In this document: positions 1,267-35,350 of the stretch, piece by piece
Numbering within the stretch: the stretch's first letter is position 1
Layout of the letters: every line of letters starts with the position of its first letter
Assembly (NCBI RefSeq): GCF_032118995.1
Contig: NC_092661.1
Location: 14,863,506-14,927,505, forward strand
Source: Asterias amurensis
Taxonomy: Eukaryota; Echinodermata; Asteroidea; Forcipulatida; Asteriidae
Length of the DNA: 64,000 nt
Direction of reading: 5' to 3'
Program-made: the position numbers and the translations under genes
The notes under the pieces: generated by a model
Told to the model about the DNA's origin: nothing
Seen by the model: the letters and a program-made list of their open reading frames with translations, nothing else
Database searches by the model: none

Positions 1267-4200
1267 ATGGCGTTGTGTTGGTGTGCTCTTGTCATCGCCT
1301 TCGCCGTGTTTTTGCCGTTTTTGACGGCAGCTGGTTTTATCGACACACCCGGCAATGTGACTGTTCATGTCGGTGAAACTGCCATTCTGCAATGCTCGGT
1401 GGATACTAACAACTTTCAAAAGTTTATGATAATGAGATGGTACAAGTCAACGATACACGACGGTTTTTATGTTGCGGTTGGCGAGTCTGTTCGGGCGAAA
1501 GGAATCGGTGCAGGAAAATACTCTCTGGACACCAGTAACGTCGGTGGTGTCTTTTCATATAACCTAACGATCACCAAAGCAGAAGTCGCTGACTCTGGCC
1601 AGTACCAATGTGGGGCTACTGACCGAGACGGGACAAGGCGCACGGAACCCGGCAGTCTCACTGTCACGGTGCAAGAAACTAACAACAAAACTATGAATTG
1701 CAGTATCTACCCCGAGGCCCCAACTCTCGGGCAGACCGTCACCTTCTCTTGCATCGCTCCAAGAGGCATCTCCCCTGACATGCTGACGTGGTGGATGGAC
1801 GGTACGGTTCAGATCCAACCAGAGGCCAACCTGACCAATGAACACGGCATCTCGTTTGTCAAGACTCTTGCCGAAGCGGACAACTTTGCTGAGTTCACCT
1901 GCCTGGTTGGGTCATCATTTCACGGAACACGGAACGGCATGAACTGCAGAGTGACACCTCTTGCTGTGCCCATACGGGCCGTAGTCACCCCGAGCGTCCT
2001 GAACGCGGCCATTGCGGGCAATGCGACGTTCCGATGCCGTGGAACGGCCATCCCATCGGTGCAGAGGTATCGATGGCTGTACGGATCGGGAGATAGTACC
2101 ATCAAGATAGCTGAGAGCAAGGGAAGGTTTTCTGTTGTGAATAACGGAGACTCATCTACTTTTACCATCACGAGGCTAACTGCAGAGGACAACAACATGA
2201 TGGTGCGTTGCGTCGTCAGGAATGTAATAACGAAGACGTTCGACTTGGCAGAACTACACGTATCAACAACTCAAGCAGAGATCACAAGTCAACAGAAAAC
2301 AACCCCTTCAACCCAACTCCATGAAGTCTCTTCACTCAGTACTACGAACCAAGACAGAACATCGGGGACTAGTGGGACTTTTAGCTCGGCGGAACTACAC
2401 TTATCAACAACCCAAATCCCGACTCAACAGCCAACAACCCCGGTAGCAAAGACTGATGGGGTCTCTTCACTGAGTACTACGATCGCCAGAAACCAAGACA
2501 GAACATCAGGGACTAGTGGGACTTTTAGCTCGGCGAAACTACACTTATCAACAACCCAAATCCCGACTCAACAGGCAACAACCCCGGCAGCAAAGACTGA
2601 TGAGGTCTCTTCACTGAATACTACGATCGCCAGAAACCAAGAGAGAACATCGGGGACTAGTGGGACTTTTAGCTCGGCGGAACTACACTTATCAACAACC
2701 ATCCTGTCAACAACCCAAATCCCGCCTCAACAGCCAACAACCCCGGCAGCAAAGACTGATGAAGTCTCTTCACTCAGTACTACGATCGCCAGAAACCAAG
2801 AGAGAACATCAGGGACTAGTGGGACTTTTAGATCGGCGCAACTACAAAAATCAGCAAACCAAGTGGAGTTCAAGAGTCAAGAGACAACAACCCCTTCAAC
2901 CCAACTCCATGAAGTCTCTTCACTCAGTACTACGATCGCAAGAAACCAAGACAGAACATCGGGGACTAGTGGGACTTTTAGCTCGGCGGAACTACACTTA
3001 TCAACAACCATCCTGTCAACAACCCAAATCCCGACTCAACAGCCAACAACCCCGGCAGCAAAGACTGATGGGGTCTCTCCACTCAGTACTACGATCCCCA
3101 GAAACCAAGACACAACATCGGGGACTAGTGGGACTTTTAGCTCGGCGGAACCACACTTATCAACAACCCAAATCCCAACTCAACAGCCAACAACCCCGGC
3201 AGCAAAGACTGATGAAGTCTCTTCACTTAGTACTACGATCGCCAGAAACAAAGACAGAACATCAGGGACTAGTGGGACTTTTAGCTCGGCGGAACTACAC
3301 TTATCAACAACCCAAATCCCGACTCAACAGCCAACAACCCCGGCAGCAAAGACTGATGAGGTCTCTTCACTCAGTACTACGATCGCCACAAATCAAAACA
3401 GCACGTCGGGGACTACGGACACTTTTAGCTCTGCAGAACTAAACGTATCAACAACCCAAATCCCAACTCAACAGCCAACAACCCCTGCAGCAAAGACTGA
3501 TGAAGTCTCTTCACTCAGTACTATGATCGCCACAAATCAAAACAGCACGTCGGGTACAACGGGGACTTTTAGCTCGGCGGAACTACACTTATCAACAACC
3601 CAAATCCCAACTCAACAGCCAACAACCCCGGCAGCAAAGACTGATGAGGTCTCCTCACTCAGTACTACGATCGCCAGAAACCAAGACAGCACGTCGGGGA
3701 CAACGGGGACTTTTAGCTCTGCAGAACTAAACTTAACAACAAATCAACTTGAGATCACGGGTCAACAGACAACACCCCCAGCATCCCACCAGACTGTTGA
3801 AGTTTCTACAATGAGCACTACAATCGCCACGACATTTCAAGACACGACTGAGACCAAGCCCATCTCGCAGCCAGCCATGAAATCCACGCAAGATGGGGCA
3901 ATAGAAACCACACAAAACCACACGACTGCGGAAAATCATTATAATGGTGTAACAACTTATCCGACAGAGAAGAGCCCATCTGAAAACGGACGTAGAACCG
4001 CACACCGTGCTTCCTCTGCAGTGTTCAGCCTTCTGTCCCTCTGTGCCCTGCTCGTCGTCGGGGCGACAGTGTACATGTTCGTAGTCTACACGAAGAAGAG
4101 AGATACCGCAGTTTGTGGTAGGAGGCTCTGGAGCAAATCACAGAGGCTGTCGATTTTGAGCAATTCGCACCACGACAAGGCTTTGGGAGACTCGGTTCGG

Positions 4201-4521
4201 CTGAAAACAATCAAGGTGATGGTTAACACAACCACTCCAGAGTGGATGTTCCGCGTTCACGACGTGACAAACGAAGACGCAGCCCAAGACGAAAACGCCA
4301 CCACCGGTGACATCCCTTCACCAGTCGTGACGTCAGACGATGGGAGACAAGATGGCGACGAGATGGACGCGTTATACGCTAAGCCAGATCGGATGAAGAA
4401 GAACAACAAGAATCACCCTAGCAGCCCCCAAGCCGACGGCTCCGACACGCATCTGCCACTGGAGAGCCCGCCCTCTGCCGTCGCCGAACACCCCCTCTCC
4501 GTTGAGACCTACGCCGTTTAG
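1267..4521 (+). CDS. Gene A: three-Ig, mucin-stalk, single-pass membrane receptor
   Basis: Single open frame of 1084 residues with no intron. A signal peptide (MALCWCALV..., residues 1 to about 22) is followed by Ig1 (Cys43-Cys115, Trp58, DSGQYQC), Ig2 (Cys162-Cys212, Trp175, extra cysteines 145 and 227) and Ig3 (Cys257-Cys315, Trp270). Residues about 335-860 are a Thr/Ser/Pro-rich stalk of about ten or eleven units of 48 residues (core TTQIPTQQPTTPAAKTDEV). One membrane helix spans 919-941, followed by KK and a cytoplasmic tail of about 140 residues containing ALYAKP. The open frame runs upstream to 1072, but the ATG at 1267 is used because it is the conserved start of the signal peptide in every paralogue while the upstream frame is not conserved. 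The C-terminus ends ETYAV, shorter than in C, D and E. It also lacks their CMNEC juxtamembrane cassette. Likely a cell-surface recognition receptor with an O-glycosylated stalk (inference). I do not recognise a named family. Confidence 0.9.
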   Translation: MALCWCALVIAFAVFLPFLTAAGFIDTPGNVTVHVGETAILQCSVDTNNFQKFMIMRWYKSTIHDGFYVAVGESVRAKGIGAGKYSLDTSNVGGVFSYNLTITKAEVADSGQYQCGATDRDGTRRTEPGSLTVTVQETNNKTMNCSIYPEAPTLGQTVTFSCIAPRGISPDMLTWWMDGTVQIQPEANLTNEHGISFVKTLAEADNFAEFTCLVGSSFHGTRNGMNCRVTPLAVPIRAVVTPSVLNAAIAGNATFRCRGTAIPSVQRYRWLYGSGDSTIKIAESKGRFSVVNNGDSSTFTITRLTAEDNNMMVRCVVRNVITKTFDLAELHVSTTQAEITSQQKTTPSTQLHEVSSLSTTNQDRTSGTSGTFSSAELHLSTTQIPTQQPTTPVAKTDGVSSLSTTIARNQDRTSGTSGTFSSAKLHLSTTQIPTQQATTPAAKTDEVSSLNTTIARNQERTSGTSGTFSSAELHLSTTILSTTQIPPQQPTTPAAKTDEVSSLSTTIARNQERTSGTSGTFRSAQLQKSANQVEFKSQETTTPSTQLHEVSSLSTTIARNQDRTSGTSGTFSSAELHLSTTILSTTQIPTQQPTTPAAKTDGVSPLSTTIPRNQDTTSGTSGTFSSAEPHLSTTQIPTQQPTTPAAKTDEVSSLSTTIARNKDRTSGTSGTFSSAELHLSTTQIPTQQPTTPAAKTDEVSSLSTTIATNQNSTSGTTDTFSSAELNVSTTQIPTQQPTTPAAKTDEVSSLSTMIATNQNSTSGTTGTFSSAELHLSTTQIPTQQPTTPAAKTDEVSSLSTTIARNQDSTSGTTGTFSSAELNLTTNQLEITGQQTTPPASHQTVEVSTMSTTIATTFQDTTETKPISQPAMKSTQDGAIETTQNHTTAENHYNGVTTYPTEKSPSENGRRTAHRASSAVFSLLSLCALLVVGATVYMFVVYTKKRDTAVCGRRLWSKSQRLSILSNSHHDKALGDSVRLKTIKVMVNTTTPEWMFRVHDVTNEDAAQDENATTGDIPSPVVTSDDGRQDGDEMDALYAKPDRMKKNNKNHPSSPQADGSDTHLPLESPPSAVAEHPLSVETYAV
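2270..3790 (+). repeat. 144-bp coding tandem repeat, gene A stalk
   Basis: About ten units of 144 bp (48 codons), each starting near ACTTTTAGCTCGGCGGAACT. Some units carry a 5-codon duplication (ILSTT). Because 144 is a multiple of three, the other frames also stay open across the array, which explains a spurious 260-codon frame here. Confidence 0.9.
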
Positions 4522-4550: not shown

Positions 4551-4754
4551 CCAAGACGATAAAGCTCGATATTGGATAGTGCATGCGCTCAGTTGTAACT
4601 CGCTAAAGCGCGCCCTCCTATGATTGGTTTGTGGGGCAAGACTAGTCTCCGGCGTACTGGCGAGCTACCCCACAAACCAGTCATAGGAGGGCGCGTTTTA
4701 GCGAGTTACAACTGAGCGCAGTACACTATCCAATATCGAGCTTTATCGTCTTGG
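4551..4754. repeat. foldback (near-perfect inverted repeat) just after gene A
   Basis: Arms of about 85-90 bp begin CCAAGACGATAAAGCTCGAT and return as its complement at the far end, around a short centre near 4,645. It starts 30 bp after the stop codon of gene A, so it probably lies in the 3' UTR, where it would form a long RNA hairpin. Confidence 0.8.
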
Positions 4755-5326: not shown

Positions 5327-5582
5327 AAATGGTGTTTGAAGCTTTGCATGGTGTGGAGAATAAGAGCATAAATATAAATATTAATAGTAAACTTGCGGGT
5401 ACAACCATGGGTGAAAACTCTTTGGAGGGAGTGGTGGCTCTGAACAGAGCCGGTTTGGTCTCGACGTTTCGAAGACGAGCAGAGTATACTGTTCGAAACG
5501 TCGAGACCAAACCGGCTCTTGTCAGAGCCACGGTTGTACCCGCAAGTTTACTGTTAATATTTATATGTATAGTTGCTTTTGT
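5327..5582. mobile_element. 256-bp foldback insertion with 8-bp direct repeats
   Basis: Flanked by TCAATGTT at 5319-5326 and 5583-5590. The same site is uninterrupted behind C (23159-23166), D and E, so this is an insertion into the gene A flank. Inside, arms of about 100 bp (GTAAACTTGCGGGTACAACC and complement) fold back. Related fragments lie at 15,960-16,065 and 38,865-39,025. The 8-bp repeat suggests a hAT-type element, but the outer ends are not clean inverted repeats. Confidence 0.65.
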
Positions 5583-5869: not shown

Positions 5870-6231
5870 TTAAAGGATTTGGGTACTTTTGTAAAGGGTT
5901 CATAGATTTACATTTAACTTACAGGGTTTGAAGATAATGATAGTGGAAAGCTTCCCTTCAAATATTATTTACTTAGGTGCTGTAGTTTTTGAGAAATGAG
6001 TAGAACAATGTCATGAAAATACGTTTGTAAATGCTTATAATTTTCGTCCCATGAGACGAAAATTATTTTCATGACATAGTTTTACTCATTTCCCCAAAAC
6101 TACAGCACCTCAGCACGTAATATTTTCAGTGAAGCTTTCTACTATCGGTGTATCTTCAAACTGTGTAAGTTTTGTGTAAATCTGTGGACATTGTGCTTTT
6201 TTGTCCTACAAAAAGTACATACACCCTTTAA
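5870..6231. mobile_element. TTAA-flanked MITE, AGGATTTGGGTAC type
   Basis: TTAA at both ends (5870 and 6228). The interior is a long imperfect inverted repeat (GGTTTGAAGATAATGATAGT and its complement near 6,150). Second copy at 48,992-49,221 and a partial third at 49,962-50,338. Confidence 0.7.
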
Positions 6232-9597: not shown

Positions 9598-10266
9598 CAG
9601 TTTTCTTCTTGATTCAGCCCGTACAACTCAAAGTTTTTAACTGTTTATATTTTAATATTTTCCCTTTTCCCCCGTGTACCAGCCTTTTATAAATGTTTTT
9701 ATCGGCCGACTGAACCTTTAGGTTATAGGAAACGTTGTCTTCCTCAATCTTGCCTTCTCCATCATCTTTTTTTATCTCTATTTTGTTTAATTTTAACGAA
9801 CTTGTGGAGAGAAGAAAAAGAAATTGAACAAGCTGGGCCGCGTCCAACAATGTCACGTGAAACCATCCGCATTTGTTTGGAACCAAATCAACTCAGAACA
9901 AGCTGCAAAACTTCCCCTATGAGGAAAAGCCTAAACAATTTTTAATGTTTTTCCCGGATTGCGAACTGGCAGTTTATTATTTCTGGCTTGGAATTCAAGT
10001 TGCCAAGACATTGAGCAGGAAACATCGAACGATATTTGGTACCCAAACCAACATCTGTTAGCAGAAGCCGGATACAAAACAAAAATCCAAAAATCCAGCC
10101 CTTTTTGAATACACGACCTTGGCTCCATATATGGGTCAGGAGCTTGGCCCCGCGGTTGTTTTTGACAATAATATTATGCATACGTGCCCATAAGGGCTTC
10201 AGACGAGAGAACGGAGCCCGAAGCCGAATCCAAAGCCGAAGCCGAGAATGTTTATTATTTATTCAC

Positions 10267-10273
10267 ATATAAA
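10267..10273 (+). promoter_or_regulatory. TATA-like box of gene B
   Basis: ATATAAA 123 bp before the ATG, in the block conserved among all five units. Confidence 0.5.
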
Positions 10274-10389
10274 CCCAGCACAACATTCAAGAAGAGACAC
10301 TCCACTTTTTAAACTCCCTAACAGACTTAATAAACTACGGCCAGAGTTGGTCTTTTCTACTGGACTGTTCTTGACTCCACACCAAAAAA

Positions 10390-13044
10390 ATGGCGTTGTG
10401 TTGGTGTGCTCTTGTCATTACATTCGCCGTGTTTTTGCCGTTTTTGACAGCAGCTGGTTTTATCGACACACCCGGTAATGTGACTGTTCATGTCGGTGAA
10501 ACTGCCATTCTGCAATGCTCGGTGGATCCTAACAACTTTCAAAAAGTAATGATAATGTATTGGTACAAGTCAACTATACACATCGGTTTGTATGTTACGA
10601 TTGGCGAGTCTGTTCGGGAGGAAGGAATCGATGCAGAAAGATACTCTCTGGACACCAGTAACGTCGGTGGTGTCTTTACATATAACCTAAGGATTACCAA
10701 TGCAGAAGTAGCTGACTCTGGCCAGTACCAGTGTAGGGCTACTGACCCAGACGGGACAAGGCGCACGGAACCCGGCATTCTCACTGTGGTGCAAGAAACT
10801 AACAACGAAACTATGAGTTGCAGTATCTACCCCGAGGCCCCAACTCTCGGACAGACCGTCACCTTCTCTTGCATCGCGCCAAGAGGCATCTCCCCTGACA
10901 TGCTGACGTGGTGGATGGACGGTACGGTTCAGATCCAACCAGAGGCCAACCTGACCAATGGACACGGCATCTCGTTTGTCAAGACTCTTACCGAAGCGGA
11001 CAACTTTGCTGAGTTCACCTGCCTAGTTGGGTCATCATTTTCAACAACACGGAACGGCATGAACTGCAGCGTGACACCTCTTGCTGTTCCCATACGGGCC
11101 GAAGTCACCCCGAGCGTCCTGAACGCCGTCATTGATGGCAATGCGACGTTCCGATGCCGTGGAACGGCCATCCCATCGGTACAGAGGTATCGATGGCTGT
11201 ATGGATTAGGAGATAGTACCATCAAGATATCTGAGAGTAATGGAAGGTTCTCTGTTGTGAATAACGAAGACTCGTCTACTTTTACCATCACGAGACTAAC
11301 TGCAGAGGACAACAGAATGATGGTGCGTTGCGTCGTTCAGAATGCGATAACAACGACTTTTGACTTAGCGGAACTACATGTATCGACGACGCGAATGGAG
11401 TTCACAAGTCAACAGAAAACATCCCCAGTAGCACAGACCCTTGAAGTCTCTTCACTAAGTACTACGATCGCCACGGAAACCAAGACAGAACATACTAGTG
11501 GGACTTTTATATCGGCGGAACTACACTTATCAACAACCCAAATCCCGACTCAACAGCCAACAACCCCGGCAGCAAAGACTGATGGGGTCTCTTTACTCAG
11601 TACTACGATCGCCAGAAACCAAGAGAGAACATCAGGGACTAGTGGGACTTTTAGATCGGCGCAACTACACGTGTCAACTACTCAAATCCCGACTCAACAG
11701 CCAACAACCCCTGCAGCAAAGACTGATGAGGTCTCCTCACTGAGTACTACGATCGCCAGAAACCAAGACAGAACATCAGGGACTAGTGGGACTTTTAGAT
11801 CGGCGGAACTACACTTATCAACAACCATCCTGTCAACAACCCAAATCCCAACTCAACAGCCAACAACCCTGGCAGCAAAGACTGATGAGGTCTCTTCACT
11901 GAGTACTACGATCGCCAGAAACCAAGACAGCACGTCGGTGACTAGTGGGACTTTTAGCTCGGCGGAACTACACTTATCAACAACCCAAATCCCGACTCAA
12001 CAGCCAACAACCCCGGCAGCAAAGACTGATGAAGTCTCTTCACTCAATACTACGATCGCCAGAAACCAAGACAGAACATCAGGGACTACGGGCACGGGTT
12101 TTATCGACACACCCGGCAATGTGACTGTTCATGTCGGTGAAACTGCCATTCTGCAATGCTCGGTGGATACTAACAACTTTCAAAAGTTTATGATAATGTT
12201 TTGGTACAAGTCAACGATACACGACGGTTTTTATGTTGCGATTGGCGAGTCTGTTCGGGCGAAAGGAATCGGTGCAGAAAAATACTCTCTGGACACCAGT
12301 AACGTCGGTGGTGTCTTTACATATAACCTAAGGATTACCAATGCAGAAGTCGCTGACTCTGGCCAGTACCAATGTAGGGCTACTGAACGAGACGGGACAA
12401 GGCGCACGGAACCCGGCAGTCTCACTGTGGTGCAAGAAACTAACAACGAAACTATGAGTTGCAGTATCTACCCCGAGACCCCAACTCTCGGGCAGACCAT
12501 CACCTTCTCTTGCATCGCTCCAAGAGACATCTCCCCTGACATGCTGACGTGGACGGACGGTACGTTTCAGATTATCCAACCAGAGGCCAACCTGACCAAT
12601 GAACACGGCATCTCGTTTGTCAAGACTCTTGCCGAAGCGGACAACTTTGCTGAGTTTACCTGCCTAGTTGGGTCATCATTTTCAACAACACGGAACGGCA
12701 TGAACTGCAGCGTGACACCTCTTGCTGTGCCCATACGGGCCGTAGTCACCCCGAGCGTCCTGAACGCCGTCATTGCGGGCAATGCGACGTTCCGATGCCG
12801 TGGAACGGCCATCCCATCGGTGCAGAGGTATCGATGGCTGTACGGATCGGGAGATAGTACCATCAAGATATCTAAGAGTAAGGGAAGGTTCTCTGTTGTG
12901 AATAACGGAGACTCATCTACTTTTACCATCACGAGGCTAACTGCAGAGGACAACAACATGATGGTGCGTTGCGTCGTTCAGAACGCGATAACAAAGACTT
13001 TTGACTTGGCAGAACTACGTATCAACTACTCCAGCGGATCGTAA
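10390..13044 (+). CDS. Gene B: chimeric double-Ig-triplet protein, probably secreted
   Basis: Open frame of 884 residues without introns. Signal peptide and Ig1-Ig3 occupy residues 1 to about 334, followed by a five-unit stalk. At residue 570 a second Ig1-Ig3 triplet begins in frame (GFIDTPGNV, without a signal peptide) and runs to about 877. It then stops after ELRINYSSGS. No membrane helix or cytoplasmic tail is encoded. The second triplet resembles that of gene A in its variable patch (MIMFWYKSTIHDGFYVAIG), while the first resembles C. The sequence from about 13,036 continues into intergenic DNA homologous to 7,437 onwards, so a deletion or recombination removed the 3' half. Either a functional soluble receptor or a decaying copy. 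The fully open frame favours recent or maintained function. Confidence 0.85.
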   Translation: MALCWCALVITFAVFLPFLTAAGFIDTPGNVTVHVGETAILQCSVDPNNFQKVMIMYWYKSTIHIGLYVTIGESVREEGIDAERYSLDTSNVGGVFTYNLRITNAEVADSGQYQCRATDPDGTRRTEPGILTVVQETNNETMSCSIYPEAPTLGQTVTFSCIAPRGISPDMLTWWMDGTVQIQPEANLTNGHGISFVKTLTEADNFAEFTCLVGSSFSTTRNGMNCSVTPLAVPIRAEVTPSVLNAVIDGNATFRCRGTAIPSVQRYRWLYGLGDSTIKISESNGRFSVVNNEDSSTFTITRLTAEDNRMMVRCVVQNAITTTFDLAELHVSTTRMEFTSQQKTSPVAQTLEVSSLSTTIATETKTEHTSGTFISAELHLSTTQIPTQQPTTPAAKTDGVSLLSTTIARNQERTSGTSGTFRSAQLHVSTTQIPTQQPTTPAAKTDEVSSLSTTIARNQDRTSGTSGTFRSAELHLSTTILSTTQIPTQQPTTLAAKTDEVSSLSTTIARNQDSTSVTSGTFSSAELHLSTTQIPTQQPTTPAAKTDEVSSLNTTIARNQDRTSGTTGTGFIDTPGNVTVHVGETAILQCSVDTNNFQKFMIMFWYKSTIHDGFYVAIGESVRAKGIGAEKYSLDTSNVGGVFTYNLRITNAEVADSGQYQCRATERDGTRRTEPGSLTVVQETNNETMSCSIYPETPTLGQTITFSCIAPRDISPDMLTWTDGTFQIIQPEANLTNEHGISFVKTLAEADNFAEFTCLVGSSFSTTRNGMNCSVTPLAVPIRAVVTPSVLNAVIAGNATFRCRGTAIPSVQRYRWLYGSGDSTIKISKSKGRFSVVNNGDSSTFTITRLTAEDNNMMVRCVVQNAITKTFDLAELRINYSSGS
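11370..12096 (+). repeat. 144-bp coding tandem repeat, gene B stalk
   Basis: Five 48-codon units, one with the ILSTT duplication. The last unit runs directly into the second Ig triplet. Confidence 0.85.
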
Positions 13045-13502
13045 TTAACTGCACTACCACGGAGTCATTTCTTGGATTGGTCTCAACGTTTCGTCTAGCT
13101 TGCTATTAGCCATCATGAGATAGTTTATTAATACGTTATAAGGAAGTCTTGAGAAATTTAGCTTACAATGTGTTAAAAGGAATATCACCTTTTCATAAAG
13201 TATGCTTAATTTTACATTGTATACAGTGATTGGAAACTGTGTGGCATGTTTCTTATCGTGCCTTCTCCTTTTAAACTTGTCAATCTAGTTTCTGTTGGAT
13301 TCGGGTTCTTTAGTGTGTATATCTATTAGAACTGCAAAGGTCGTGGGTTCATAAAAATTGTAATGGATTTTAAGAAATGGTCAGTTTGACTTTTTCCTTC
13401 TCATTTTGGCACAGTTTCCGGGCCACATTGACACAGAAATGGTTCAGGCCACCAAATGACCCTGAATTCGCAATGGTTTTATTGTTGATACTCATTGGAA
13501 CA
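13045..13502. other. intergenic flank of B, no gene seen
   Basis: Homologous to 7,437-7,786 and, in part, to 37,060-37,210 and 37,592-37,687. Holds only short random frames. Confidence 0.6.
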
Positions 13503-16344: not shown

Positions 16345-16689
16345 GGGTGCGTTCGTTTAGCTTCCCTGGGTCGACCCCGATGTGGCGTATTTTATTTTTT
16401 TCCAGGACGAACGTGGGCACACAATTACCCCACGTTCGTCCTCGAACCTGGAGAAAAAACCCAGACGCATCATCACGTGAGCCTTCCCGTGACCCAATCC
16501 ACAAGCGGGGCTCTTGGGGCTGGCCCGAGGTGCAACGACGTCACCACGGGAAGGCTCACGTGATGATGTGTCTGGGGGTTTTCCAGGTTCGAGGACGAAC
16601 GTGGGGTAATTGTGTGCCCACGTTCGTCCTGGAAAAAAATAAAATACACCACATCGGGGTTGACCCAGGGAAGCTAAACGAACGCACCC
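16345..16689. mobile_element. 345-bp giant foldback element
   Basis: Near-palindrome with arms of about 150 bp. Ends are GGGTGCGTTCGTTTAGCTTC and its complement, then GGACGAACGTGGGCACACAA and complement further in. Diverged relatives lie on both sides (about 16,115-16,195 and 16,905-16,979), so this is a small nest of one family. The apparent frames here are palindrome artefacts. Confidence 0.8.
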
Positions 16690-19694: not shown

Positions 19695-20158
19695 CGAACT
19701 TGTGGAGAGAAATAGAAATAGAATTAAGCTGGGCCGTGTCCAACAATGTCCATAAAACCATCTGCATTTGTCTGGAACCAAATCAACTCAGAACAAGCTG
19801 CAAAACTTCCCCTATGAGGAAAAGCCTAAACAATTTTTAATGTTTTTCCCCGGATTGCGAACTGGCAGTTTATTATTTCTGGCTTGGAATTCAAGTTGCT
19901 AAGACATTGAGCAGGAAACATCGAACGATATAATTGGTACCCAAACCAACATCTGTTAGCAGAAGCCGGATACAAAACAAAAATCCAGCCCTTTTTGAAT
20001 ACACGACCTTGGCTCCAGATATGGCTCAGGCTAGCTTGGCCCCGCGGTTGTTTTTGACAATAATATTATGCATACGTGCCCATAAGGGCTTCAGATGAGA
20101 GAACGGAGCCCGAAGCCGAATCCAAAGTCGAAGCCGAGAATGTTCATTATTTATTCAC

Positions 20159-20165
20159 ATATAAC
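20159..20165 (+). promoter_or_regulatory. TATA-like box of gene C
   Basis: ATATAAC 122 bp before the ATG (last base differs from A, B and D). Confidence 0.45.
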
Positions 20166-20280
20166 CCAGCACAACATTCAAGAAGAGACACTCCACTTTT
20201 TAAACTCCCTAACAGACTTAATAAACTACGGCCAGAGTTGTTCTTTTCTACTGGACTGTTCTTGACTCCACACCAAAATA

Positions 20281-22374
20281 ATGGCGTTGTGTTGGTGTGC
20301 TCTTGTCATCGCCTTCGCCGTGTTTTTGCCGTTTTTGACGGCAGCTGGTTTTATCGACACACCCGGCAATGTGACTGTTCATGTCGGTGAAACTGCCATT
20401 CTGCAATGCTCGGTGGATCTTATCAACTTTCAAAAGTCTATGATTATGAATTGGTACAAGTTAACTACACACAGCGGTTTGTATGTTACAGTTGGCGAGT
20501 CTGTTCGGACGAAAGGAATCGATGCAGAAAGATACTCCCTGGACACCAGTAACGTCGGTGGTGTCTTTACATATAACCTAAGAATTACCAATGCAGAAGT
20601 AGGTGACTCTGGCCAGTACCAGTGTAGGGCTTCTGACCCAGACGGGACAAGGCGCACGGAACCCGGCAGTCTCACTGTGGTGCAAGAAACTAACAACGAA
20701 ACTATGAGTTGCAGTATCTACCCCGAGGCCCCAACTCTCGGGCAGAACGTCACCTTCTCTTGCATCGCTCCAAGAGGCATCTCCCCTGACATGCTGACGT
20801 GGATGGACGGTACGTTTCAGATCATCCAACCAGAGGCCAACCTGACCAATGAGCATGGTATCTCGTTCGTCAAGACCCTTGCCGAAGCGGACAACTTTGC
20901 TGAGTTCACCTGCCTTGATGGGTCATCATTTTCAACAACACGGAACGGCATGAACTGCAGCGTGACACCTCTTGCTGTTCCCATACAGGCCGAAGTCACC
21001 CCGAGCGTTCTGAACGCGGTCGTTGCGGGCAATGCGACGTTCCGATGCCGTGGAACGGCCATCCCATCGGTGCAGAAGTATCGATGGCTGTACGGATTAG
21101 GAGATAGTACCATCGAGAGTAATGGAAGGTTTTCTGTTGTGAATAACGGAGACTCGTCTACTTTGACCATCACGAGGCTAACTGCAGAGGACAACAGCAC
21201 GATGGTGCGTTGCGTCGTTCAGAATGCGATGACAAAGACTTTTGACTTGGCGGAACTACACGTTTCGACGACGCGAATGGAGTTCACAAGTCAACAGAAA
21301 ACATCCCCAGCAGCACAGACCCTTGAAGTCTCTTCACTAAGTACTACGATCGCCACTGAAACCAAGACAGAACATACTAGTGGGACTTTAAGATCGGCGG
21401 AACTACACTTATCAACAACCCAAATCCCGACTCAACAGCCAACAACCCCGGCAGCAAAGACTGATGTGGTCTCTTCACTCAGTACTACGACCGCCAGAAA
21501 TCAAGACAGCACGTCGGGGACTACGGACACTTTTAGCTTTGCAGAACTAAACGTATCCACCACTCAAGTTGAGATCACGAGTCAACAGACAACATCCCCA
21601 GAATCCCACACTGTTGAAGTTTCTACAAAGAGTACTACAATCGCCATGACATTTCAAGACACGACTGAGACCAAGCCCATCTCGCACCCAGTCATGAAGT
21701 CCACGCAAGATGGGGCAATAGAAACCACACAAAACCACACGACCGCGGAGAATCATAATGGTGATATCAACTTTGATACCGACGCCCCGCAAGATTGCAT
21801 GAACGAATGCGCGGGGAAAATCTATCCGAAAAAGAAGAGCCCATCTGACGGCAGTCGAACCGCACACCGTGCTAGCGCTGTAGTGTTCAGCCTTCTGTCC
21901 CTCTGTGCCCTGCTCGTCGTCGGGGCGACGGTGTACATGTTCGTAGTCTACACTAAGAAAAAAGATCCCGCAGCTGGAGGTGGGAGGCTCTGGAGAAAAT
22001 CACCGAGGCTGTCGATTTTGAGCAATTCGCATCAGGATCTGGCTTTGGGAGACTCGGTTCGGCTGAAAACCATCGAGGTGATGGTTAACACACCCACTCC
22101 AGAGTGGATGTTCCGAGTTCACGACGTGACAAACGAAGACGCAGCCCAAGACGAAAACGCCACCACCGGTGACATCCCTTCACCAGTCGTGACATCAGAC
22201 GATGGAAGACAAGATGGCGACGAGATGGACGCGTTATACGCTAAGCCAGATCGGATGACGAAGAACAACAAGAATCACCCTAGCCCGCCCTCTGCCGTCG
22301 CCGAGCACTCCCTCTCCGTTGAGACCTACGATCCGGACTTTGTCGTTTGTCCGATGTTTCCAAGTGCGGTGTGA
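20281..22374 (+). CDS. Gene C: three-Ig membrane receptor with short stalk
   Basis: Intronless frame of 697 residues. Signal peptide, Ig1-Ig3 to about residue 330, only about three stalk units, then a juxtamembrane segment with CMNEC, a membrane helix at 535-557 and a 137-residue tail ending ETYDPDFVVC...SAV. The variable patch of Ig1 reads MIMNWYKLTTHSGLYVTVG. Ig3 lacks the four codons that encode KIAE/KISE in A and B. The short stalk puts the Ig head closer to the membrane than in A or E. Same inferred role as gene A. Confidence 0.9.
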   Translation: MALCWCALVIAFAVFLPFLTAAGFIDTPGNVTVHVGETAILQCSVDLINFQKSMIMNWYKLTTHSGLYVTVGESVRTKGIDAERYSLDTSNVGGVFTYNLRITNAEVGDSGQYQCRASDPDGTRRTEPGSLTVVQETNNETMSCSIYPEAPTLGQNVTFSCIAPRGISPDMLTWMDGTFQIIQPEANLTNEHGISFVKTLAEADNFAEFTCLDGSSFSTTRNGMNCSVTPLAVPIQAEVTPSVLNAVVAGNATFRCRGTAIPSVQKYRWLYGLGDSTIESNGRFSVVNNGDSSTLTITRLTAEDNSTMVRCVVQNAMTKTFDLAELHVSTTRMEFTSQQKTSPAAQTLEVSSLSTTIATETKTEHTSGTLRSAELHLSTTQIPTQQPTTPAAKTDVVSSLSTTTARNQDSTSGTTDTFSFAELNVSTTQVEITSQQTTSPESHTVEVSTKSTTIAMTFQDTTETKPISHPVMKSTQDGAIETTQNHTTAENHNGDINFDTDAPQDCMNECAGKIYPKKKSPSDGSRTAHRASAVVFSLLSLCALLVVGATVYMFVVYTKKKDPAAGGGRLWRKSPRLSILSNSHQDLALGDSVRLKTIEVMVNTPTPEWMFRVHDVTNEDAAQDENATTGDIPSPVVTSDDGRQDGDEMDALYAKPDRMTKNNKNHPSPPSAVAEHSLSVETYDPDFVVCPMFPSAV
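21250..21650 (+). repeat. coding stalk repeat, gene C
   Basis: About three 48-codon units, the smallest number in the cluster. Confidence 0.8.
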
Positions 22375-26527: not shown

Positions 26528-26995
26528 CGAACTTGTGGAGAGAAATAGAAATATAACAAGCTGGGCCGTGTCCAACATTGTCCATAAAACCATCCGCATT
26601 TGTTTTGAACCAAATCAACTCAGAACAAGCTGCAAAACTTCCCCTATGAGGAAACGCCTAAACAATTTTTAATGTTTTTCCCGGATTGCGAACTGGCAGT
26701 TTATTATTTCTGGCTTGGAATTCAAGTTGCTAAGACAATGAGCAGGAAACATCGAACGATATTTGGTACCCAAACCAACATCTGTTAGCAGAAGCCGGAT
26801 ACAAAACAAAAATCCCAAAATCCAGCCCTTTTTGAATACACGACCTTGGGTCCAGATATGGCTCAGGCTAGCTTGGCCCCGCGGTTGTTTTTGACAATAA
26901 TATTATGCATACGTGCCCATAAGGGCTTCAGATGAGAGAACGGAGCCCGAAGCCGAATCCAAAGCCGAAGCCGAGGATGTTCATTATTTATTCAC

Positions 26996-27002
26996 ATATA
27001 AA
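26996..27002 (+). promoter_or_regulatory. TATA-like box of gene D
   Basis: ATATAAA 121 bp before the ATG. Confidence 0.5.
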
Positions 27003-27116
27003 CCAGCACAACATTCAAGAAGAGACTTCCTCTTTGTAAACTCCCTAACAGACTTAATAAACTACGGCCAGAGTTGTTCTTTTCTACTGGACTGTTCTTG
27101 ACTCCACACCAAAATA

Positions 27117-29807
27117 ATGGCGTTGTGTTGGTGTGCTCTTGTGATTACATTCGCCGTGTTTTTGCCGTTTTTGACGGCAGCTGGTTTTATCGACACACCC
27201 GGCAATGTGACTGTTCATGTCGGTGAATCTGTCATTCTGCAATGCTCGATTGATCCTAAAAACTTCAAAGAGGCTATGATAATGTATTGGTACAAGACGA
27301 CGATAAGTGATGGGTTCTTTGTAACGTATGGGCAGTCCGTATGGGCAGTCCAGAACCTGCTCGGTGCAGAAAGATACTCTCTGGACACCAGTAACGTCGG
27401 TGGTGTCTTTATATATAACCTAAGGATTACCAATGCAGAAGTAGCTGACTCTGGCCAGTACCAGTGTAGGGCTACTGACGTAGACGGGACAAGGCGCACG
27501 GAACCCGGCAGTCTCACCGTCACGGTGCAAGAAACTAACAACGAAACTATGAGTTGCAGTATCTACCCCGAGGCCCCAACTCTTGGGCAGACCGTCACCT
27601 TCTCTTGCATCGCTCCAAGAGGCATCTCCCCTGACATGCTGACGTGGTGGGTGGACGGTACGGTTCAGATCCAACCAGAGGCCAACCTGACCAATGGACA
27701 CGGCATCTCGTTTGTCAAGACTCTTGCCGAAACGGACAACTTTGCTGAGTTCACCTGCCTGGTTGGGTCATCATTTTCAACAACACGGAAAGGCATGAAC
27801 TGCAGCGTGACACCTCTGGCTGTGCCCATACGGGCCGAAGTCACCCCGAGCGTCCTGAACGCGGCCATTGCGGACAATGCGACGTTCCGATGCCGTGGCA
27901 CGGCCATCCCATCGGTGCAGAGGTATCGATGGCTGTACGGATCAGGAGATAGTACCATCAAGGTATATGAGAGTAAGGGAAGGTTTTCTGTTGTGAATAA
28001 TGGAGACTCGTCTACTTTTACTATCACGAGGCTAACTGCAGAGGACAACAGCATGATGGTGCGTTGCATCGTTCAGAATGCGATAACAAAGACTTTTGAC
28101 TTGGCGGAACTACACGTATCGACGACGCGAATGGAGTTCACAAGTCAACGGAAAACATCCCCAGCAGCACAGACCCTTGAAGTCTCTTCACTAAGTACTA
28201 CGATCGCCACTGAAACCAAGACAGAACATACTAGTGGGACTTTTAGCTCGGCTGAACTACACTTATCAACAACCCAAATCCCGACTCAACAGCCAACAAC
28301 CCCGGCAGCAAAGACTGATGAGGTCTCTTCACTGAGTACTACGATCGCCAGAAACCAAGACACAACATCGGGGACTAGTGGGACTTTTAGATCGGCGGAA
28401 CTACACTTATCAACAACCCAAATCCCGACTCAACAGCCAACAACCCCGGCAGCAAAGACTGATGAGGTCTCTTCACTGAGTACTACGATCGCCAGAAACC
28501 AAGACAGAACATCAGGGACTAGTGGGACTTTTAGCTCGGCGGAACTACTCTTATCATCAACCCAAATCCCGACTCAACAGCCAACAACCCCGGCAGCAAA
28601 GACTGATGAGGTCTCTTCACTCAGTACTACGATCGCCAGAAACCAAGACAGCACGTCGGGGACTACAGACACTTTTAGCTCGGCGGAACTACACTTATCA
28701 ACAACCCAAATCCCGACTCAACAGACAACAACCCCGGCAGCAAAGACTGATGAGGTCTCTTCACTGAGTACTACGATCGCCAGAAACCAAGACAGAACAT
28801 CAGGGACTAGTGGGACTTTTAGCTCGGCGGAACTACTCTTATCAACAACCCAAATCCCGACTCAACAGCCAACAACCCCGGCAGCAAAGACTGATGAGGT
28901 CTCCTCACTCAGTACTACGATCGCCAGAAACCAAGACAGCACGTCGGGGACTACGGACACTTTTAGCTTTGCAGAACTAAACGTATCCACCACTCAAGTT
29001 GAGATCACGAGTCAACAGACAACATCCCCAGAATCCCAGACTGTTGAAGTTTCTACAATGAGTACTACAATCGCCATGACATTTCAAGACACGACTGAGA
29101 CCAAGCTCATCTTGCACCCAGTCATGAAATCCACGCAAGATGGGGCAATAGAAACCACACAAAACCACACGACCGCGGAGAATCATAATGGTGATATCAA
29201 CTTTTTTACCGACGCCCCGCAAGATTGCATGAACGAATGCGCGGGGAAAATCTATCCGAAAAAGAAGAGCCCATCTGAAAACGGCAGTCGAACCGCACAC
29301 CGTGCTAGCGCTGTAGTGTTCAGCCTTCTGTCCCTCTGTGCCCTGCTCGTCGTCGGGGCGACGGTGTACATGTTCGTAGTCTACACTAAGAAAAAAGATC
29401 CCGCAGCTGGAGGTGGGAGGCTCTGGAGAAAATCACCGAGGCTGTCGATTTTGAGCAATTCGCATCAGGATCTGGCTTTGGGAGACTCGGTTCGGCTGAA
29501 AACCATCGAGGTGATGGTTAACATACCCACTCCAGAGTGGATGTTCCGAGTTCACGACGTGACAAACGAAGACGCAGCCCAAGACGAAAACGCCACCACC
29601 GGTGACATCCCTTCACCAGTCGTGACGACAGACGATGGGAGACAAGATGGCGACGAGATGGACGCGTTATACGCTAAGCCAGATCGGATGACGAAGAACA
29701 ACAAGAATCACCCTAGCCCGCCCTCTGCCGTCGCCAAACACTCCCTCTCCGTTGAGACCTACGATCCGGACGTTGTCGTTTGTTCGATGTTTCCAAGTGC
29801 GGTGTGA
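27117..29807 (+). CDS. Gene D: three-Ig, mucin-stalk membrane receptor
   Basis: Intronless, 896 residues. Same order as A: signal peptide, three Ig domains, stalk of about seven 48-residue units, CMNEC-containing juxtamembrane segment, membrane helix 734-756 and 137-residue tail with ALYAKP and a C-terminus ending FPSAV. Ig1 carries a distinct variable patch shared only with E (NFKEAMIMYWYKTTISDGF, then a version two residues longer, AVQNLLGAER). Its 3' flank contains the 225-bp element and joins unit E at about 30,661. A Tc1-like element lies about 1.1 kb upstream. Confidence 0.9.
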   Translation: MALCWCALVITFAVFLPFLTAAGFIDTPGNVTVHVGESVILQCSIDPKNFKEAMIMYWYKTTISDGFFVTYGQSVWAVQNLLGAERYSLDTSNVGGVFIYNLRITNAEVADSGQYQCRATDVDGTRRTEPGSLTVTVQETNNETMSCSIYPEAPTLGQTVTFSCIAPRGISPDMLTWWVDGTVQIQPEANLTNGHGISFVKTLAETDNFAEFTCLVGSSFSTTRKGMNCSVTPLAVPIRAEVTPSVLNAAIADNATFRCRGTAIPSVQRYRWLYGSGDSTIKVYESKGRFSVVNNGDSSTFTITRLTAEDNSMMVRCIVQNAITKTFDLAELHVSTTRMEFTSQRKTSPAAQTLEVSSLSTTIATETKTEHTSGTFSSAELHLSTTQIPTQQPTTPAAKTDEVSSLSTTIARNQDTTSGTSGTFRSAELHLSTTQIPTQQPTTPAAKTDEVSSLSTTIARNQDRTSGTSGTFSSAELLLSSTQIPTQQPTTPAAKTDEVSSLSTTIARNQDSTSGTTDTFSSAELHLSTTQIPTQQTTTPAAKTDEVSSLSTTIARNQDRTSGTSGTFSSAELLLSTTQIPTQQPTTPAAKTDEVSSLSTTIARNQDSTSGTTDTFSFAELNVSTTQVEITSQQTTSPESQTVEVSTMSTTIAMTFQDTTETKLILHPVMKSTQDGAIETTQNHTTAENHNGDINFFTDAPQDCMNECAGKIYPKKKSPSENGSRTAHRASAVVFSLLSLCALLVVGATVYMFVVYTKKKDPAAGGGRLWRKSPRLSILSNSHQDLALGDSVRLKTIEVMVNIPTPEWMFRVHDVTNEDAAQDENATTGDIPSPVVTTDDGRQDGDEMDALYAKPDRMTKNNKNHPSPPSAVAKHSLSVETYDPDVVVCSMFPSAV
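28110..29060 (+). repeat. 144-bp coding tandem repeat, gene D stalk
   Basis: About seven 48-codon units, with LLLS and LHLS variants alternating. Confidence 0.85.
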
Positions 29808-31795: not shown

Positions 31796-32252
31796 TGAAC
31801 TTGTGGAGAGAAATAGAAATAGAATTAAGCTGGGCCGTGTCCAACAATGTCCATAAAACCATCCGCATTTGTCTGGAACCAAATCAACTCAGAACAAGCT
31901 GCAAACGGAAAAGCCTAAACATATTTTAATGTTTTTCCCGGATTGCGAACTGGCAGTTTATTATTTCTGGCTTGGAATTCAAGTTGCCAAGACATTGAGC
32001 AGGAAACATCGAACGATATTTGGTACCCAAACCAACATCTGTTAGCAGAAGCCGGATACAAAACAAAAATCCAAAAATCCAGCCCTTTTTGAATACACGA
32101 CCTTGGCTCCAGATATGGCTCAGGCTAGCTTGGCCCCGCGGTTGTTTTTGACAATAATATTATGCACACGTGCCCATAAGGGCTTCAGATGAGAGAACGG
32201 AGCCCGAAGCCGAATCCAAAGCCGAAGCCGAGAATGTTCATTATTTATTCAC

Positions 32253-32259
32253 ATATAAC
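32253..32259 (+). promoter_or_regulatory. TATA-like box of gene E
   Basis: ATATAAC 122 bp before the ATG. Confidence 0.45.
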
Positions 32260-32374
32260 CCAGCACAACATTCAAGAAGAGACACTCAACGTTTTAAACT
32301 CCCTAACAGACTTAATAAACTACGGCCAGAGTTGTTCTTTTCTACTGGACTGTTCTTGACTCCACACCAAAATA

Positions 32375-35350
32375 ATGGCGTTGTGTTGTTGTGCTCTTGT
32401 GATTACATTCGCCGTGTTTTTTCCGTGTTTGACGGCAGCTGGTTTTATCGACACACCCGGCAATGTGACTGTTCATGTCGGTGAATCTGTCATTCTGCAA
32501 TGCTCGATTGATCCTAAAAACTTCAAAGAGGCTATGATAATGTATTGGTACAAGACGACGATAAGTGATGGGTTCTTTGTAACGTATGGGCAGTCCGTAT
32601 GGGCAGTCCAGAACCTGTTCGGTGCAGAAAGATACTCTCTGGACACCAGTAACGTCGGTGGTGTCTTTATATATAACCTAAGGATTACCAATGCAGAAGT
32701 AGCTGACTCTGGCCAGTACCAGTGTAGGGCTACTGACGTAGACGGGACAAGGCGAGCGGAACCCGTCAGGCTCACCGTCACGGTGCAAGAAACTAACAAC
32801 GAAACTATGAGTTGCAGCATCTACCCCGAGGCCCCAACTCTTGGGCAGACCGTCACCTTCTCTTGCATCGCTCCAAGAGCCATCTCCCCTGACATGCTGA
32901 CGTGGATGGACGGTACGTTTCAGATAATCCAACCAAAGGCCAACCTGGCCAATGAACACGGCATCTCGTTTGTCAAGACTCTTGCCGAAACGGACAACTT
33001 TGCTGAGTTCACCTGCCTGGTTGGGTCATCATTTTCAACAACACGGAAAGGCATGAACTGCAGCGTGACACCTCTTGCTGTGCCCATACAGGCCGAAGTC
33101 ACCCCGAGCGTCCTGAACGCGGCCATTGCGGACAATGCGACGTTCCGATGCCGTGGAACGGCCATCCCATCGGTGCAGAGGTATCGATGGCTGTACGGAT
33201 CAGGAGATAGTACCATCAAGGTATATGAGAGTAAGGGAAGGTTTTCTGTTGTGAATAATGGAGACTCGTCTACTTTTACTATCACGAGGCTAACTGCAGA
33301 GGACAACAGCATGATGGTGCGTTGCATCGTTCAGAATGCGATAACAAAGACTTTTGACTTGGCGGAACTACACGTATCGACGACGCGAATGGAGTTCACA
33401 AGTCAACGGAAAACATCCCCAGCAGCACAGACCCTTGAAGTCTCTTCACTAAGTACTACGATCGCCACTGAAACCAAGACAGAACATACTAGTGGGACTT
33501 TTAGCTCGGCTGAACTACACTTATCAACAACCCAAATCCCGACTCAACAGCCAACAACCCCGGCAGCAAAGACTGATGAGGTCTCTTCACTGAGTACTAC
33601 GATCGCCAGAAACCAAAAGAGAACATCAGGGACTAGTGGGACTTTTAGCTCGGCGGAACTACACTTATCAACAACCCAAATCCCGACTCAACAGCCAACA
33701 ACCCCGGCAGCAAAGACTGATGAGGTCTCTTCACTGAGTACAACGATCGCCAGAAACCAAGACACAACATCGGGGACTAGTGGGACTATTAGCTCGGCGG
33801 AACTACACGTATCAACTACTCAAATCCCGACTCAACAGCCAACAACCCCTGCAGCAAAGACTGATGAGGTCTCTTCACTGAGTACTACGATCGCCAGAAA
33901 CCAAGACAGAACATCAGGGACTAGTGGGACTTTTAGCTCGGCGGAACTACTCTTATCAACAACCCAAATCCCGACTCAACAGCCAACAACCCCGGCAGCA
34001 AAGACTGATGAGGTCTCTTCACTGAGTACTACGATCGCCAGAGACCAAGAGAGAACATCAGGGACTAGTGGGACTTTTAGATCGGCGGAACTACACTTAT
34101 CAACAACCCAAATCCCGACTCAACAGCCAACAACCCCGGCAGCGAAGACTGATGAGGTCTCTTCACTGAGTACATCGATCGCCAGAAACCAAGACACAAC
34201 ATCGGGGACTAGTGGGACTTTTAGCTCGGCGGAACTACACGTATCAACTACTCAAATCCCGACTCAACAGCCAACAACCCCTGCAGCAAAGACTGATGAG
34301 GTCTCTTCACTGAGTACTACGATCGCCAGAAACCAAGACAGAACATCAGGGACTAGTGGGACTTTTAGCTCGGCGGAACTACTCTTATCAACAACCCAAA
34401 TCCCGACTCAACAGCCAACAACCCCTGCAGCAAAGACTGATGAGGTCTCTTCACTCAGTACTACGACCGCCAGAAATCAAGACAGCACGTCGGGGACTAC
34501 GGACACTTTTAGCTTTGCAGAACTAAACGTATCCACCACTCAAGTTGAGATCACGAGTCAACAGACAACATCCCCAGAATCCCACACTGTTGAAGTTTCT
34601 ACAATGAGTACTACAATCGCCATGACATTTCAAGACACGACTGAGACCAAGCCCATCTCGCACCCAGTCATGAAATCCACGCAAGATGGGGCAATAGAAA
34701 CCACACAAAACCACACGACCGCGGAGAATCATAATGGTGATATCAACTTTTTTACCGACGCCCCGCAAGATTGCATGAACGAATGCGCGGGGAAAATCTA
34801 TCCGAAAAAGAAGAGCCCATCTGACGGCAGTCGAACCGCACACCGTGCTAGCGCTGTAGTGTTCAGCCTTCTGTCCCTCTGTGCCCTGCTCGTCGTCGGG
34901 GCGACGGTGTACATGTTCGTAGTCTACACTAAGAAAAAAGATCCCGCAGCTGGAGGTGGGAGGCTCTGGATAAAATCACCGAGGCTGTCGATTTTGAGCA
35001 ATTCGCATCAGGATCTGGCTTTGGGAGACTCGGTTCGGCTGAAAACAATCGAGGTGATGGTTAACATACCCACTCCAGAGTGGATGTTCCGAGTTCACGA
35101 CGTGACAAACGAAGACGCAGCCCAAGACGAAAACGCCACCACCGGTGTCATCCCTTCACCAGTCGTGACGACAGACGATGGGAGACAAGATGGCGACGAG
35201 ATGGACGCGTTATACGCTAAGCCAGATCGGATGACGAAGAACAACAAGAATCACCCTAGCCCGCCCTCTGCCGTCGCCGAGCACTCCCTCTCCGTTGAGA
35301 CCTACGATCCGGACTTTGTCGTTTGTCCGATGTTTCCAAGTGCGGTGTGA
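32375..35350 (+). CDS. Gene E: three-Ig, mucin-stalk membrane receptor
   Basis: Intronless, 991 residues. Signal peptide (MALCCCALV), Ig1-Ig3 almost identical to D in Ig1 and Ig3, stalk of about nine units, CMNEC cassette, membrane helix 829-851 and 137-residue tail. Ig2 follows the C/B2 version (TWMDGTFQIIQP) rather than the D version (TWWVDGTVQIQP), so the gene is a mosaic, best explained by gene conversion among paralogues. Within the stalk, a block of three units (432 bp) appears duplicated as units 3-5 and 6-8. Last gene of the cluster. Confidence 0.9.
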   Translation: MALCCCALVITFAVFFPCLTAAGFIDTPGNVTVHVGESVILQCSIDPKNFKEAMIMYWYKTTISDGFFVTYGQSVWAVQNLFGAERYSLDTSNVGGVFIYNLRITNAEVADSGQYQCRATDVDGTRRAEPVRLTVTVQETNNETMSCSIYPEAPTLGQTVTFSCIAPRAISPDMLTWMDGTFQIIQPKANLANEHGISFVKTLAETDNFAEFTCLVGSSFSTTRKGMNCSVTPLAVPIQAEVTPSVLNAAIADNATFRCRGTAIPSVQRYRWLYGSGDSTIKVYESKGRFSVVNNGDSSTFTITRLTAEDNSMMVRCIVQNAITKTFDLAELHVSTTRMEFTSQRKTSPAAQTLEVSSLSTTIATETKTEHTSGTFSSAELHLSTTQIPTQQPTTPAAKTDEVSSLSTTIARNQKRTSGTSGTFSSAELHLSTTQIPTQQPTTPAAKTDEVSSLSTTIARNQDTTSGTSGTISSAELHVSTTQIPTQQPTTPAAKTDEVSSLSTTIARNQDRTSGTSGTFSSAELLLSTTQIPTQQPTTPAAKTDEVSSLSTTIARDQERTSGTSGTFRSAELHLSTTQIPTQQPTTPAAKTDEVSSLSTSIARNQDTTSGTSGTFSSAELHVSTTQIPTQQPTTPAAKTDEVSSLSTTIARNQDRTSGTSGTFSSAELLLSTTQIPTQQPTTPAAKTDEVSSLSTTTARNQDSTSGTTDTFSFAELNVSTTQVEITSQQTTSPESHTVEVSTMSTTIAMTFQDTTETKPISHPVMKSTQDGAIETTQNHTTAENHNGDINFFTDAPQDCMNECAGKIYPKKKSPSDGSRTAHRASAVVFSLLSLCALLVVGATVYMFVVYTKKKDPAAGGGRLWIKSPRLSILSNSHQDLALGDSVRLKTIEVMVNIPTPEWMFRVHDVTNEDAAQDENATTGVIPSPVVTTDDGRQDGDEMDALYAKPDRMTKNNKNHPSPPSAVAEHSLSVETYDPDFVVCPMFPSAV
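33370..34600 (+). repeat. 144-bp coding tandem repeat, gene E stalk
   Basis: About nine 48-codon units. The exact 144-bp period is seen from 33,497 to 33,641. A higher-order three-unit duplication is visible. Confidence 0.85.

Follow-up and report, generated by a model that had tools for sequence, protein, structure and literature searches.

The window analysed here, that is the whole stretch of 64,000 nucleotides of the Asterias amurensis contig NC_092661.1 (C14:14863506-14927505), carries five long open frames on the forward strand, genes A to E, each of them intronless and read as a single open frame. Genes A, C, D and E share one architecture: signal peptide, V-set immunoglobulin domain (Ig1), two further immunoglobulin domains (Ig2 and Ig3), Ser/Thr-rich repeat stalk, one transmembrane (TM) segment and a tail. 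In gene A (1267-4521, ATG at 1267) the Ig2-Ig3 part lies at 1666-2265, the stalk at 2272-3966 (ends approximate) and the tail has 140 residues; gene C extends over 20281-22374, gene D over 27117-29807 and gene E over 32375-35350. Gene B (10390-13044) encodes Ig1-3, a stalk and a second in-frame Ig1-3 cassette, and then stops with no TM segment. The original prediction counted six copies of Ig1, and the search of the genome for cassette copies (491,506,623 bases, 23 contigs) raised this number to seven: one each in A, C, D and E, two in gene B (B1 and B2), and an inverted one, Z, which lies just outside the window (C14:14855509-14857548, L039:2004-4043, minus strand). The closest sequence beyond these seven copies is 34% identical.

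This report concerns a short patch of Ig1 in which amino acid change between the copies is concentrated. It covers codons 46-88 of A (1402-1530), and on the same strand it lies at 10525-10653 in B1, 12166-12294 in B2 (which is A-like), 20416-20544 in C, 27252-27386 in D, where it is two codons longer, and 32510-32644 in E, almost the same as in D. The idea that the D/E or the A version came from a donor gene elsewhere was rejected, as whole-genome DNA searches gave only the seven copies. The patch had been placed on the C to C'' face of a V-set domain; the V-set assignment is borne out by sequence, and the placement between BC loop and C'' rests on an assumed register and a weak model. Ig1 exceeds the Pfam V-set cut-off (26 bits) in all five genes: A, C, D and E score 43.9 to 50.4 bits, and the two copies of B reach 90 bits. 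None of the core anchors C43, W58 and C115 varies between the seven copies. In the V-set register, which we take to apply here, these anchors belong to strands B, C and F, respectively. The BC loop would then take in residues 47-55, strand C about 54-61, strand C' 66-72 and C'' those from 73 onwards, and the patch would reach from the BC loop through C, C' and C'' into the start of D, the predicted ligand face. The structure model of Ig1 as a single domain is weak (mean predicted local distance difference test score, pLDDT, 55.8) and has strands at 54-60, 63-71 and 85-88 (model numbers plus 21). The matches listed for it, with TM-scores of about 0.5-0.6, are mostly V domains, among them PD-1, CD8-alpha, CD96 and antibody light chains, and some I-set ones; a three-domain model (pLDDT 30) was set aside as unusable.

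In the codon alignment, A and B1 differ within residues 46-88 at 12 replacement codons (47, 53, 57, 65, 67, 70, 71, 77, 78, 81, 83 and 84) and 2 silent ones (52 and 62), exactly as predicted, C is variable at the same positions, and the D and E version is indeed two residues longer; the patch of Z is one residue longer, at a place other than the D/E insertion. The near identity claimed for the flanks was found in part: between A and B1, residues 23-45 carry one silent change, residues 89-133 carry ten changes, 6 of them replacements and 4 silent, and the 500 bp upstream of the ATG are 10.5% different (52/495). The description fits better B1, C, D and E, whose upstream 500 bp (9890-10389, 19781-20280, 26617-27116 and 31875-32374, all on the forward strand), taken as a non-coding yardstick, differ by 1.6-3.6% from one another (by 1.8-3.3% for B against C, D and E). 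Among these four copies the patch is 13-31% different in five of the six pairs (D-E 0.7%). Since 24 replacement and 24 silent codons differ between A and B1 elsewhere in residues 23-333, the concentration is borderline when this pair is judged by itself (p=0.0496 in a scan permutation; p=0.029 in a Fisher test of replacement vs silent, patch vs rest). With windows sampled every 7 codons, the replacement peak falls in this region: residues 43-85 have 15.5 per 97.5 sites and the patch itself 15.5 per 97.2. Across the six window copies it is clear (permutation p=0.0002): the patch has 0.319 amino acid differences per codon, the top 43-codon window of Ig1-Ig3, starting from residue 42, has 0.332, and the best such window not overlapping the patch has 0.136. 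Seven residues inside the patch, W58, Y59, K60, G66, S74, A82 and Y85, are invariant in all seven copies.

The remainder of the cassette bears traces of exchange between copies. Compared with A, B1, C, D and E, copy Z is 49-64% different, i.e., unalignable, over the 500 bp before the ATG, 23-26% different in the patch, 19-26% at cassette positions 296-399 and 15-17% at 400-479, and just 0-10% over positions 480-959, being identical (0.0%) to A at 480-559 and to B1 at 640-719, so that it is nearly identical over most of Ig2-Ig3 despite its unalignable promoter. At positions 640-719 A is 10-12.5% different from B1, C, D and E. (The upstream part of this block comparison did without B2.) Run tests on the two longest runs in each of the 21 pairs gave uncorrected p<0.01 in four pairs, namely B1-Z at residues 204-244 (p=0.0005), B2-C at 121-146 (p=0.0025), and B1-D and B1-E at 97-119 (p=0.0045 and 0.0035); after correction for 21 pairs, B1-Z is the sole surviving run. 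In the stretch of A residues 121-146, B2 agrees with C at 27 polymorphic sites. Mosaic tracts between copies are indicated, not firmly established, and together with the greater likeness of Z to A, B1, C, D and E in the cassette than in the flank they give the family the character of a concerted multigene family.

Both nonsynonymous (dN) and synonymous (dS) divergence are raised in the patch. Between B1 and C it has dS 0.167 and dN 0.138, against 0.018 for the 500 bp of upstream DNA, and the neutral tree length of the six copies is 2.14 in the patch vs 0.70 elsewhere, about threefold. Since synonymous depth is also raised, much of the patch signal is that of an old divergent block in genes otherwise exchanging sequence. 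Codon likelihoods were computed with our own implementation of GY94-type models (kappa ordinary, 2.0). The ratio dN/dS (omega) is 0.41-0.42 in Ig2 and Ig3, and a separate omega for the patch, with Z included, is 0.84 vs 0.43 in the rest of Ig1-3 (p=0.028); the ratio of nonsynonymous to silent differences (pN/pS, over the 21 pairs of the seven copies) is 0.73 in the patch and 0.51 behind it, with 0.53 for Ig2 and 0.37 for Ig3. Comparison of models M2a and M1a over all of Ig1 gave p=0.0025 and 0.0017 on two trees, a result set aside as it stands, because it assumed a single depth for the domain and the raised patch dS can inflate the test. When codons 38-97 were given separate branch lengths, p was 0.015, and with separate FastTree topologies as well it was 0.013 for seven copies and 0.0125 for six, the observed value being reached by 0 of the 17 simulated nulls completed out of 56 planned. 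The class with omega>1 comprises about 5% of sites at omega about 7.6 (8.5 in six copies).

With naive empirical Bayes posteriors above 0.7, the sites of this class are 53, 57, 61 and 120 in seven copies and 53, 57, 71 and 120 in six. Listed in the order A, B1, B2, C, D, E, Z, codon 53 (1423-1425) reads F/V/F/S/A/A/S, codon 57 (1435-1437), just before the strand C tryptophan, R/Y/F/N/Y/Y/Y, codon 61 of strand C (1447-1449), indicated in the seven-copy fits and not in the six-copy fit, S/S/S/L/T/T/G, and codon 120 of the FG loop (1624-1626) R/P/R/P/V/V/Q. These fits indicate that a few sites have omega above 1, but not that such sites are restricted to the patch, since site 120 lies outside it. 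By the assumed register and strand alternation, rather than coordinates, residues 57 (beside the buried Trp) and 61 would point to the CFG side and 120 would lie in the FG loop, which agrees with a ligand face. Positive selection is thus indicated, not firmly, at a few Ig1 sites; for the patch taken whole it is unproven.

The same question can be put to other immunoglobulin receptor clusters of this genome, for which 17 of 20 fetched stretches were analysed (L059, L060 and L061 were left out; L001-L038 are search rows only). A separate tandem family of intronless receptors occurs at C18:16248001-16268000 (L040, L041), 27-30% identical to A; its Ig1 analyses used 7 of the 8 open reading frames over 180 amino acids, leaving out L040_7185, which has no Ig1, and the scan used four close copies, plus one pair separately. 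In several close pairs the differences gather between the BC loop and C'' (alignment columns 41-80), the scan of the four close copies gives p=0.0056, and pN/pS is 1.14 in the patch vs 0.67 before and 0.49 after it. Patch omega is 1.06 vs 0.56 (p=0.079), and M2a (p=0.020) indicates sites 51, 67 and 76 (posterior 0.87-0.98), further 113, just past the Cys of strand F (0.77), and 53, just ahead of the Trp of strand C (0.71). The patch is again the top region in the C14 4-Mb cluster (58.4% vs 32.9-50.5% elsewhere; p=0.0056), so that in two other clusters variation is highest at the same location. The pattern recurs, yet it is not universal: universality is ruled out by the C1 clusters, where in group 1 (L042-L051, C1:25.59-25.67 Mb) the most divergent stretch starts near aligned residue 225, outside Ig1.

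We favour, at a rough probability of 55%, a reading in which conversion homogenises the copies and diversifying selection keeps the putative ligand face of Ig1 different. Exchange between copies (gene conversion, unequal exchange) would keep Ig2-Ig3 and the B-E promoters alike, the BC-C-C'-C'' patch together with one FG-loop site would contact a variable ligand, and copies losing the patch difference would be disfavoured, because of which the patch would have become older and more divergent than its surroundings. A few exposed sites would change faster than neutral, and each copy would represent one germline-fixed specificity on a common scaffold. The ligand would presumably be microbial or allogeneic, and the receptors immune ones.

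Several results weigh against this reading. The expected dN/dS well above 1 in the patch only was not obtained: patch omega is 0.82-0.84 in seven copies, not different from 1, and the higher values of subsets, 1.50 for A, B1, B2 and C (p=0.40) and 2.14 for A and B1 (p=0.28), are not significant, so that patch-wide positive selection in the simple sense is rejected. A separate patch omega is not favoured when compared with the rest of Ig1 (p=0.16 with Z), nor in the six copies without Z (0.77 vs 0.54, p=0.31), M2a falls short of significance when restricted to the patch (p=0.14), and pN/pS of residues 23-45, before the patch, equals that of the patch at 0.73. Only four patch types plus Z exist, which leaves low power, and the site posteriors are naive empirical Bayes ones. 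Codons with silent differences only reach 0.130 per codon in the patch vs 0.122 in another window (six copies), and in seven copies the patch, with 0.114, falls below another window with 0.147. Not every stretch is homogenised, because the 500 bp upstream of A are 10-12% different from those of B-E. The structure model of Ig1, too, is a weak one. Elsewhere in the genome, the C18 pair L041_1786/L041_3884 shows no patch concentration (scan p=0.996), Ig2 is as different as the patch over all seven C18 copies (34.9% vs 32.0%), because two kinds of Ig2-Ig3 occur in that cluster, and the two C1 groups tested show no patch pattern (group 1 also by scan).

Foremost among the alternatives is a conversion mosaic that arose with no selection for difference: much of the gene was homogenised, and one old block, under ordinary constraint, escaped conversion by chance. 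It would account for patch dS being raised along with dN and for a patch omega only marginally different from the rest, and other blocks differ too, e.g., that at cassette positions 640-719 between A and B1, C, D and E; we regard it as unlikely, since the distant cluster and the third cluster vary most at the same structural place, the omega>1 class survives separate branch lengths and trees, and the indicated sites lie in loops and on strand C. A lower probability is given to relaxed constraint, that is, a BC/C'/C'' edge of Ig1 which tolerates change, its omega drifting towards 1. The near-neutral patch omega (0.77-0.84 here, 1.06 in the C18 cluster) is as this explanation would have it, but relaxation alone would not raise dS, as is seen between B1 and C, and the seven invariant residues of the patch speak against it. 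A mutation hotspot or targeted mutator at the patch is most improbable: dN and dS are both raised over a short stretch, whereas invariant codons are interspersed, kappa is ordinary and whole blocks of differences are held in common, by A with B2 and by D with E.

Hydractinia has polymorphic allorecognition genes of Ig type, and balancing selection leaves old divergent patches with raised dS. One may ask if the patch determines allorecognition, with the receptors or partners of theirs as polymorphic self markers and rare-allele advantage maintaining the diversity. Allorecognition by starfish coelomocytes is described for adults of Patiria pectinifera, and no starfish gene for it is named in the part of that report used here (PMC9763293). 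Nothing ties this cluster to grafting, and the evolutionary mechanism would be the same as in the favoured reading, the ligand alone being different; like relaxed constraint, this explanation is improbable. It is also very unlikely that collapsed or mis-joined copies in the assembly gave false mosaics. Gene B, with its odd double cassette and no TM segment, might raise such a suspicion, but the five long open frames are intact, the upstream DNA differs between copies, and the published assembly, according to the extract of its description used here, combined HiFi reads with Hi-C and had haplotypic duplicates removed (PMC10625585).

The tails are of interest in view of signalling. The tail of Z, longer than the others (218 residues), contains VTYAEL and VDYADI, which we take to fit the consensus of the immunoreceptor tyrosine-based inhibitory motif (ITIM); two or more ITIM-like motifs occur in 2.15% of shuffles of this tail (P=0.0215). 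The shorter tails of A, C, D and E contain no ITIM-like motif and no recognised activating motif, so that within this cluster the ITIM-like tail is confined to Z. In the C18 family, to which they are confined, motifs like the immunoreceptor tyrosine-based activation motif (ITAM) occur in 5 of the 7 open reading frames over 350 amino acids, as YMELGDRETTAHEYMGL or with one letter changed (shuffle P 0.007-0.038 for three tails tested), with a spacer of 9; the usual ITAM spacer is shorter, 6-8. Judged from these motifs, the tails of Z and C18 suggest immune-type signalling receptors, without proving them. One C18 pair has tails 91% identical and Ig parts, as far as compared, about 40% identical.

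Some features of the window stand apart from the patch. The repeat stalk (2272-3966 and its equivalents) is about 40% Ser/Thr and its length varies among A, C, D and E. The second Ig1-3 cassette of gene B (12094-13044) ends in AELRINYSSGS, and a 15-base stretch at 13053, just past the stop, repeats at 7455, about 2.9 kb downstream of A, with further similarity seen by eye. Because B has no TM segment and the stretch after its stop recurs downstream of A, its product may be soluble and may have arisen by unequal exchange. At 16345-16689 lies an inverted repeat resembling a miniature inverted-repeat transposable element, with 111-nt arms, 97% complementary, 123 nt apart, and smaller ones of the kind lie at 4584-4720, 5368-5570 and 5939-6146. 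An open frame of 244 residues (43180-43914, minus strand) has no Pfam match at E<=0.01.

A wider picture is possible, though doubtful: starfish would possess germline repertoires of intronless V-set receptors, with separate ITIM-like and ITAM-like families, a common scaffold maintained by exchange and a V-face patch held apart by selection, as an independent invertebrate counterpart of the vertebrate paired receptors for microbial or allogeneic recognition. A compact cluster differing chiefly at the presumed binding face would offer a short list of residues and a ready set of natural variants built on a single scaffold, for which the second, distantly related cluster would serve as a replicate.

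Among known systems, the best PDB match by sequence is the vertebrate polymeric Ig receptor (E=7e-9 for the whole chain, a sum of weak domain matches, with 0.049 for the best single domain); the likeness is that of V-type domains, no orthology is claimed, and the architecture of that receptor differs from the starfish genes. The N domains of CEACAM proteins lack the cysteines of the B-F disulfide, and C43 and C115 are kept in all seven copies of the starfish Ig1; by this sign the family would not be CEACAM, yet it resembles CEACAM in mode of evolution. The sea urchin Sp185/333 proteins, in turn, are not immunoglobulin receptors. Their genes, immune genes of an echinoderm, are clustered like the starfish ones, and exchange between copies is put forward as one origin of their diversity (PMC5103432); the patch on an Ig face has no counterpart there. 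The echinoderm kirrelL is likewise an intronless Ig-domain gene; in the part of its report used here it is a skeletogenic cell-fusion gene, described as one gene and not as a diversified tandem family (PMC8903837). No description of the starfish family was found among the titles and abstract openings listed by searches of open-licence PubMed Central papers, and one A. amurensis genome paper, in the excerpt used, links expanded families to immune response in general terms (PMC11090083).

Closer parallels come from vertebrates, again as far as the extracts of the cited reports go. The Xenopus ceacam paired receptors are also clustered V-type receptors with conversion and differing signalling tails (PMC5112662), whereas in the starfish cluster the ITIM-like tail belongs to Z alone and A, C, D and E have no recognised activating motif. 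The N domains of primate CEACAM1/3/5/6 share fast change in the outer V-type domain and conversion between paralogues, but there conversion shuffles the V domain (PMC8860441), whose patch stays different in starfish. The nearest description found for exchange with a protected ligand face is that of ruminant CEACAM32, in which conversion acts on gene parts (leader exon, introns) and spares the Ig-domain exons, the mean dN/dS is 0.65, and replacements cluster in codons 36-52, with candidate sites in or near the CFG face (PMC7042247). In that case whole Ig exons of one paralogue escape, while in starfish it is a patch of about 45 codons inside one open frame that differs among copies. The starfish pattern resembles that of some pathogen-facing vertebrate receptors, and if the favoured reading is true, concerted evolution with a protected ligand face, as in ruminant CEACAM32, would occur also in an invertebrate, at the scale of part of a domain.
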